This document shows, piece after piece, positions 30,571 through 32,415 of a DNA stretch of 63,223 nt. The stretch's first letter is position 1, and each line of letters starts with the position of its first letter. The notes beneath the pieces are model-generated. The model ran no database searches. It saw only the letters and a program-made list of their open reading frames with translations, and was not told where the DNA came from. This DNA is from Chloroflexota bacterium (GTDB lineage Bacteria; Chloroflexota; UBA6077; JACCZL01): the NCBI GenBank assembly GCA_020850535.1, contig JADZEM010000197.1, positions 1 to 63,223 of the forward strand, in the 5' to 3' direction. The position numbers and the translations under genes are program-made.

Positions 30571-32415
30571 CTACCAGCGGCCAGCCTCGTCCGGGGACAG
30601 CACCGCCGTCGGGGCCGGCGCACGCCGCTTGAGCAGGTCGGCGACGCCGCTCCCGAGCAGCAGCGCGCTGGCCGCCGTTCCGAGCAGGCAGATCAGCGGG
30701 AACAGCACCAGCCACGGCGCGCGCAGGCCGGCCTCCCGACCATCGATCAGCAGGCTGCTCCAGGAGACGCTCGTCGAATCGGGCGGCGCGCCCAGCAGCA
30801 GCCGCCCGAAGACGCCCAGCCAGCGCAAGGTGGTGTCCGTCCCGAACAGCCCGATGCCCGTCTCGGCCAGCAGGCTGGCGGCCAGCGCCACGCTGACGGT
30901 CAGCACCAGCAGCGGCGTGCTCGGCCAGGCGCGACGCAGCCGCTTCGTCAGTTGCCGCCGCAGCAGCAGCCCGACGCCCGCCACGATGCCGCCGGTCGTC
31001 AGCAGGCGCAGCGTCACGAAGCGGCCGGCCAGCATCAGCAGGCTCAGGACGTCGCGCCCGTCAGCGTCCCCGCCGAGCGGATAGCTGCCGGCCAGCCCGA
31101 ACGGATAGATCAGGCGGGCCTGCCCGTTGTACGCCAGCGGATCGCGCGGGGTCGGGAGCCAGCAGAGCAGCAGGATCAGCGCCAGCAGCAGCCCGAACGT
31201 CAGCTTGTAGAGGGTGAGCCGGCTCGGCTGGGTCCGCTCAAGCATGCGGTGCACCCCGGTCGTGACTGGCGAGGGCAGCGGCTCGTGCATTGCACCGGGG
31301 ATGGTCGGCGGGGGCGGCACGAAGCTGGGCGTGCCGCGCAGCGGCGTCTGACGCGTGCCGCCGGCCGGACCGCCGCCGGCCGGACCGCCGCCGGCCGGGC
31401 TGCTGCCGGCCGGACCGCCGCTGACCGGTCCCGAGGCCGGCGGACCCGACCCACCAGACGCCCCGGGGCTGGCGGGCGACGACGCTCGGGGCGGCGGCGT
31501 CGCGGTCGGTGCGCCGGTTACTGGCCGCCCGCTGGCCGGTCCGCCGGCCGGGCCGGCGCCCGCCGCGTCCTGGCGGCGCGGGGCGGTCTGGAGGCCAGCT
31601 GCCGCAGCCTCGATGGCGTCCACGAACGCCTTGCCGGTCGGGAAGCGCTCGGCGGGCGACTTCTGCAACTGCTTGAGCACGGTCCACTCGACGGCCGGCG
31701 AGAGGTCCGTCCGCAGTGTGCGTGGCAGCGGCGGCTGAGTGTGGATCTGGGCGTACATGATCGTCTGGGAGTTGACGCCGGTGAACGGCACCCTGCCCGT
31801 CAGCATCTCGTAGGCGATGACCCCAAGGGCGTACAGGTCCGTGCCGGGGCCGCTCTCGCCTTCGGTGATCGTCTCCGGGGACATGTACTCCGCCGTGCCG
31901 ATGCGCGTCGCGGCCTCGGTCAGGCGAGTGCCCTCGGCCGCCCGCGCGATGCCGAAATCGACCAGCGTCAGGTGGCCGTCCCCATCCACGATGGCGTTGC
32001 CGGGCTTGATGTCGCGGTGCACGACGCCGCGCGCGTGCGCGAAGTCGAGCGCCTCGGCAAGCTGGCGCAGCAGCTGCACGCTGCGCTCGACGGAGAGCGG
32101 CCCCTCGTTGCGGATCACCTCGTGGAGCGAGCGGCCCTCCAGCAGCTCCATGACGATGTAGTGGGTGTCGCGCTCCTCGGCGATGTCGTGGATGATCACG
32201 ATGTTCGGATGGCGCAGCTCGCTGGCGAGGCGCGCCTCGCGCTCGAAGCGCTGGAGGAACGTCTCGTCGTGCGCGAACGAGACTGGCAGAACCTTGATGG
32301 CGCGCGGCTGCCCGAGCCGCTGATGGACGGCCCGGTAGACGACGCCCATGCCGCCCGCCCCGAGCTTGCTCTGGAGCTCGTACGGCCCCAACTGCTGGCC
32401 GATCCAGCTATCCAC
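30571..32415 (-). CDS. Ser/Thr protein kinase fused to a DppC/OppC-like membrane domain
   Basis: The 614-aa product starts with GTG. Residues about 10-272 form a Hanks-type kinase: glycine loop LGAGGMGVVY, Lys in RAIKVLP, catalytic HRDIKPGNAIVD, DFG in LVDFGIARA, and SPET. A Pro/Gly/Ala-rich linker covers about 273-397. The last 217 residues are membrane-embedded and read like a dipeptide ABC permease: a first helix, DPLAYNGQARL, SYPLGGDADGRDVLSLLMLAGR, then AETGIGLFG, SVSWSSLLIDGREAGLRAPWLVLFP and GSGVADLLKRR. The permease centre with the EAA loop that contacts the ATPase is missing. It is therefore likely a sensor or anchor rather than a transporter. An APH-like kinase gene follows. Confidence 0.85.
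   Translation of the reverse strand: MDSWIGQQLGPYELQSKLGAGGMGVVYRAVHQRLGQPRAIKVLPVSFAHDETFLQRFEREARLASELRHPNIVIIHDIAEERDTHYIVMELLEGRSLHEVIRNEGPLSVERSVQLLRQLAEALDFAHARGVVHRDIKPGNAIVDGDGHLTLVDFGIARAAEGTRLTEAATRIGTAEYMSPETITEGESGPGTDLYALGVIAYEMLTGRVPFTGVNSQTIMYAQIHTQPPLPRTLRTDLSPAVEWTVLKQLQKSPAERFPTGKAFVDAIEAAAAGLQTAPRRQDAAGAGPAGGPASGRPVTGAPTATPPPRASSPASPGASGGSGPPASGPVSGGPAGSSPAGGGPAGGGPAGGTRQTPLRGTPSFVPPPPTIPGAMHEPLPSPVTTGVHRMLERTQPSRLTLYKLTFGLLLALILLLCWLPTPRDPLAYNGQARLIYPFGLAGSYPLGGDADGRDVLSLLMLAGRFVTLRLLTTGGIVAGVGLLLRRQLTKRLRRAWPSTPLLVLTVSVALAASLLAETGIGLFGTDTTLRWLGVFGRLLLGAPPDSTSVSWSSLLIDGREAGLRAPWLVLFPLICLLGTAASALLLGSGVADLLKRRAPAPTAVLSPDEAGRW

Follow-up and report, generated by a model that had tools for sequence, protein, structure and literature searches.

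The window analyzed here, a stretch of 63,223 nucleotides from a Chloroflexota draft genome (contig JADZEM010000197.1), harbors a gene in which a Ser/Thr kinase is fused to a membrane domain derived from the permease subunit DppC. This fusion had been proposed in a sequence-only reading of the same DNA, and it is borne out by profile searches, shuffled controls, the alignment and codon use. As judged from sequence comparison, the C-terminal domain is a real, shortened DppC/OppC homologue and not a chance likeness. The main doubt concerns not the presence of the DppC piece but its role beyond holding the kinase in the membrane.

Organization of the Kinase Gene

The gene lies on the minus strand (30571..32415), as do all of its parts given below; it starts with GTG at 32415, stops at 30571-30573 and codes for 614 residues. 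Residues 12-242 (31690..32382) form a Hanks-type, PknB-like kinase domain (Pfam Pkinase, 1e-54), whose kinase fold carries the P-loop, the lysine, HRD and DFG that define Hanks-type Ser/Thr kinases; the motifs GAGGMG, AIKVL, HRDIKPGN, DFG and SPE are all in place in the sequence. The NCBIfam model PknB_PASTA_kin also matches the kinase part (6.6e-92), with 309 of 450 bits, which is under the family cut-off. The kinase domain is followed by a linker rich in Gly, Ala, Pro and Ser (residues 276-393, 31237..31590; GC of 0.83 at codon position 2) and then by the C-terminal membrane domain (residues 394-614, 30574..31236), a shortened DppC/OppC relative of 221 residues.

The whole gene is one uninterrupted frame, with no stops across the C-terminal domain. 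Codon use is gene-like along its whole length, and equally so in the two parts: at the three codon positions, the kinase has a GC content of 0.70/0.44/0.94 and the C-terminal domain one of 0.72/0.54/0.95. The opposite strand is likewise open (29905-33333, plus strand, 1142 codons), so that an open frame alone is weak evidence here; this antisense frame has poorer codon use than the kinase strand, and it is probably a by-product of the high GC content.

Homology of the C-Terminal Domain with DppC

The DppC profile check that the earlier reading had called for came out in its favor. Among NCBIfam models, DdpC (NF007376, 9.9e-8), NikC (3.7e-6) and Opp2C (3.9e-6) matched the domain, its front aligning with the start of the models and its rear with their end. 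All of these DppC-type matches lie far under the curated cut-offs, which is where a fragmentary relative would be expected to score. A profile built from 18 DppC proteins of the kinase's own genome scored the domain at 43.4 bits; the highest score among 2000 shuffled sequences was 10.2, and the reversed sequence gave −1.5. The Pfam search retrieved no match to BPD_transp_1 or any other family over the C-terminal domain, so that this half of the check proposed earlier failed. When the domain was used to search its own genome, the best non-self matches were DppC genes (from 3.1e-6). A sequence search of the PDB reached DppC no better than at E 0.003.

The likeness is concentrated in two colinear blocks. 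In an ungapped scan, residues 442-468 fit only positions 67-93 of the DppC consensus, and residues 541-598 only positions 231-288. Block 1 (31012..31092, AGSYPLGGDADGRDVLSLLMLAGRFVT, z 7.5) corresponds to the extracytoplasmic side ahead of TM2 in DppC and follows the pattern LGxDxxGRDVLS; LGxDxxGRD, together with its neighbors, is the most conserved part retained. Block 2 (30622..30795, z 14.8) corresponds to the end of the TM5-TM6 loop and to TM6, with the pattern SW..LL....APW..FP onwards, and reaches an hhalign probability of 97.6. In blastp against 37 DppC proteins, two pieces were common, the first placing residues ~5-90 of the 221-residue domain (counted from 1) on DppC 29-113 and the second residues ~100-205 on DppC 202-291. 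The agreement of the NCBIfam matches, the profile with its shuffled controls, the ungapped scan and blastp is the reason for regarding the likeness as homology.

According to the alignment and the ungapped scan, the segments retained are those facing outward in DppC. Several residues invariant in DppC have nevertheless been replaced in the alignment (SWG by SWS, FPG by FPL and GDGLRD by GSGVAD), which implies that this outward face may have drifted.

The Missing Core and the Predicted Topology

The distance between the two blocks is 72 residues, compared to 137 in DppC; the EAA loop is therefore gone, and its conserved Arg, Ala and Gly fall in the alignment gap. This confirms the earlier statement that the domain keeps the start and the end of DppC and has lost the EAA-loop centre. 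The missing core comprises the rest of the TM2-TM3 loop, one TM hairpin and the EAA/coupling loop, and its place is taken by a short basic loop (residues 486-497, 30925..30960, RRQLTKRLRRAW) with six K/R and no D/E. About 15 residues are inserted directly ahead of block 2 in the alignment. Hydropathy gives four membrane segments, compared to six in DppC. The third of these is aligned at its start with DppC TM3 by MAFFT and is TM5-like at its end by blastp, while the ungapped scan is weak in this region.

In E. coli DppBC, the pathway is lined by TM3-TM6, and a coupling helix joins TM4 and TM5 (PMC12136057); the part lost here is therefore much of the transport core. With the EAA/coupling loop gone and four segments remaining, the domain should neither transport nor dock an ATPase. 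A functional DppC-type permease combines sequence homology to DppC, six TM segments, an EAA/coupling loop between TM4 and TM5 and genes for DppB, a binding protein and ATPases encoded with it; the homology was found here, and the other three were not, the last of them as regards the genes around the kinase. A working permease was discarded as a reading on account of the absent coupling loop and the presence of only four segments.

Positive charges are found in the middle loop and at the flanks of the first and last segments, a pattern that fits four crossings with the kinase and the tail both inside. The domain was also modeled with AlphaFold2, from an alignment with the 18 DppC proteins. The mean pLDDT was 72, with values of 84-92 for model residues 11-80, 76-88 for 161-210 and mostly below 60 in the middle, and the helices are consistent with four membrane segments. 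In the structural comparison, the best 13 PDB matches of the model were all DppC/OppC chains, at E-values from 5e-3 up and query TM-scores of 0.40-0.49, but the alignment draws the model towards DppC, so that it is consistent with a DppC fold rather than an independent support for it. Full-length prediction without an alignment gave a pLDDT of 42.

Sister Kinases and Phylogenetic Distribution

The same genome, a draft of 227 contigs, yielded 14 kinase matches. Its other kinases with a readable frame and membrane segments have one TM each, and the DppC profile did not match any of the other readable kinases. The best sister kinase (48%) aligns through the linker up to residue 385, the linker being typical of the sisters thus far; past this residue, the sisters have their single TM, whereas the present protein has a DppC-like TM1. 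The DppC piece therefore occupies the site of the anchor and sensor of a receptor kinase.

Searches among 80 relatives and in 28 further genomes of the class (29 searched including its own) did not recover the C-terminal domain a second time, and neither did a search at E 1e-7 across 400 genomes from the phylum, in which few candidates were scored per genome. The DppC profile did not detect the domain in any of 80 kinase loci taken from other species, and short peptide patterns searched across 84,980 species retrieved only the copy in the window. In a relaxed search of 121 genomes (E 1e-4), nearly all matches fell in frames of ordinary permease length; the frames listed measured 101-429 aa, except for one of 601 (G002:C73), one of 624 (the window) and one of 727 (own genome, C16). 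Beside the DppC matches whose surroundings were inspected, no kinase was present. A count of the same architecture in related genomes, also suggested earlier, thus turned up no second genome. These searches cover close to moderate relatives, and a much diverged version could escape them; within them the architecture is new and so far a singleton from one draft genome.

Gene Neighborhood

An APH-family phosphotransferase gene (29530..30564, minus strand; Pfam APH, 5e-18) starts six bases past the kinase stop and is probably co-transcribed with the kinase; no match to it was retrieved at 1e-15 from five related genomes. Farther downstream lie a C5 cytosine methylase gene and an adjoining Vsr mismatch endonuclease gene (27526-29416, minus strand). 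The GC content at codon position 3 of the methylase gene is 0.61, against about 0.9 in the neighboring genes, which suggests that it is a recent arrival.

Upstream of the kinase, Pfam identifies a GH31-like gene (32593-34698, minus strand) that keeps an N-terminal mutarotase-like domain and a C-terminal GH31 domain. The TIM-barrel model is covered only at positions 236-326 of 328, i.e., its last quarter, and an EGRS-rich repeat occupies the middle of the protein. Like the permease part of the kinase, this gene retains both ends without the centre, and its lost middle suggests decay or remodeling in the region. A further gene (42184-43818, minus strand) codes for several LysM domains and an NlpC/P60 domain and is likely a cell-wall hydrolase. 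No Dpp operon genes (DppB, binding protein or ATPases) were found in the window around the kinase.

Possible Role of the Fusion

The reading that we prefer, at a little less than an even chance, is that of a transporter-derived membrane receptor Ser/Thr kinase whose coreless DppC-type domain would relay signals in the manner of the GlnH-GlnX-PknG system. In place of the usual single TM anchor and extracytoplasmic sensor there would be a DppC-type ABC permease without its core, which consisted of a membrane hairpin and the EAA/coupling loop, and the kinase would lie in the cytosol. Since the domain keeps part of the DppC outward face, it may still be in contact with a peptide-binding lipoprotein, or have a DppB-type subunit as its partner, and such contact would alter kinase activity via the helix bundle. 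Transmitter and kinase would be in one chain, and the system would otherwise work as GlnH-GlnX-PknG does. Sensing, and peptides as the ligand, are inferred; the receptor reading draws on the analogy with CbrA, the Amt-histidine kinase and GlnH-GlnX-PknG.

This receptor reading is supported by the DppC homology at both ends, the intact kinase motifs and the gene-like codon use, by the retention of the outward DppC parts while the ATPase-coupling and channel part was lost, by the position of the DppC piece where the sister kinases have their single TM, and by a charge pattern in keeping with four crossings and two cytosolic ends, the topology shown for GlnX (PMC9769921). It is weakened by the single occurrence, by the lack of a peptide importer or binding protein nearby, by the loss of DppC-invariant residues and by the adjacent GH31-like gene, also without its middle. 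Furthermore, it is DppB and not DppC of E. coli DppABCDF that carries the scoop motif reaching into the binding protein DppA (PMC12136057), which likewise weakens it.

The main rival is a degenerate membrane anchor: the kinase may have captured a decaying DppC gene, through fusion or domain swap, the remnant anchoring it with no ligand or partner. The single occurrence in a genome that abounds in DppC genes, the loss of several invariant residues and of half the middle, and the adjacent gene with the same kind of loss would be in keeping with such a capture. Against this, the domain has gene-like codon use and no stops, and block 1 with its GxDxxGRD (z 7.5) is unusually well kept for a free anchor; overall we regard the anchor as a tentative possibility of some weight. 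An improbable alternative is that of a docking device. The domain would then pair with either a DppB-type permease or an entire Dpp importer and bring the kinase there, and phosphorylation of the importer would serve to control transport and not to sense. DppC does normally pair with DppB, and DppC-type genes are many in this genome, but part of TM3-TM6, the segments lining the pathway where DppB and DppC meet (PMC12136057), is missing here, and no importer genes lie near the kinase.

Least probable, and by our estimate very unlikely, is an artefact of the draft in which a chimeric or collapsed assembly joined the kinase to part of a permease gene. The number of contigs, the position of the join in a GC-rich low-complexity linker and the upstream GH31-like neighbor without its middle would all be compatible with it. 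On the other hand, the frame is single and uninterrupted with even codon statistics, as far as residue 385 the linker is of the kind seen in the sister kinases, and the remnant is divergent throughout and has its own insertion, so that it does not represent a truncated copy of any of the DppC genes detected in this genome.

How bacterial Ser/Thr kinases are activated is a standing question. If the receptor reading is true, a sensor made from an importer subunit points at a class of ligands, namely peptides or wall fragments brought by a binding protein, and ABC permeases, like SLC5 and Amt, can turn into receptors after losing their transport core. More tentatively still, the ABC permease stripped of its transport core might be the sensor by which a Ser/Thr kinase reads the state of a peptide-binding protein, a counterpart of the histidine-kinase transceptors.

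Comparison with Known Systems

In a literature search of one library, an ABC permease domain was not encountered on any Ser/Thr kinase. The DppC, OppC and NikC permease subunits share with the domain two colinear blocks homologous to both DppC ends; they differ from it in having six and not four segments and an EAA/coupling loop, and the domain is fused behind a kinase, outside any Dpp operon. The receptor kinases of the PknB/PrkC type (Stk1 family) have the same order of N-terminal kinase, linker and membrane part, whereas here PASTA repeats and the single TM are absent and a permease-derived domain is found instead. A PASTA-type receptor kinase (Stk1/PknB) is ruled out by the lack of a PASTA match in Pfam.

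In the relay of Actinobacteria, GlnH is the binding protein, GlnX the four-helix transmitter and PknG the kinase (PMC9769921, PMC6069109). GlnX, which passes the state of the binding protein to the Ser/Thr kinase, has four TM, a cytosolic N-terminus and a middle loop of 11 residues (PMC9769921). The cytosolic N-terminus, four TM, short middle loop and Ser/Thr kinase output recur in the topology predicted here; GlnX, however, is a protein of its own and has large CHASE3-like domains, and the likeness seen here is one of topology. The binding protein of that relay is known; near the present kinase, no gene for one was found.

Ser/Thr kinases with solute-binding-protein domains have been listed in Streptomyces and Nostoc (PMC1262709); they also reuse part of an ABC importer, but the part is the binding protein, while here it is the permease. 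Lastly, transporters fused to histidine kinases are represented by CbrA, with SLC5 (PMC7096432, PMC13022988), and by the Amt-histidine kinase of Kuenenia (PMC5764959). As in these proteins, a transporter-derived membrane domain lies in one chain with a kinase, which is one of two features that define a transceptor, the other being control of the kinase activity by a ligand at that domain; CbrA and the Kuenenia protein are histidine kinases with a full-length secondary transporter or Amt, whereas in the present protein a truncated ABC permease is joined to a Ser/Thr kinase.
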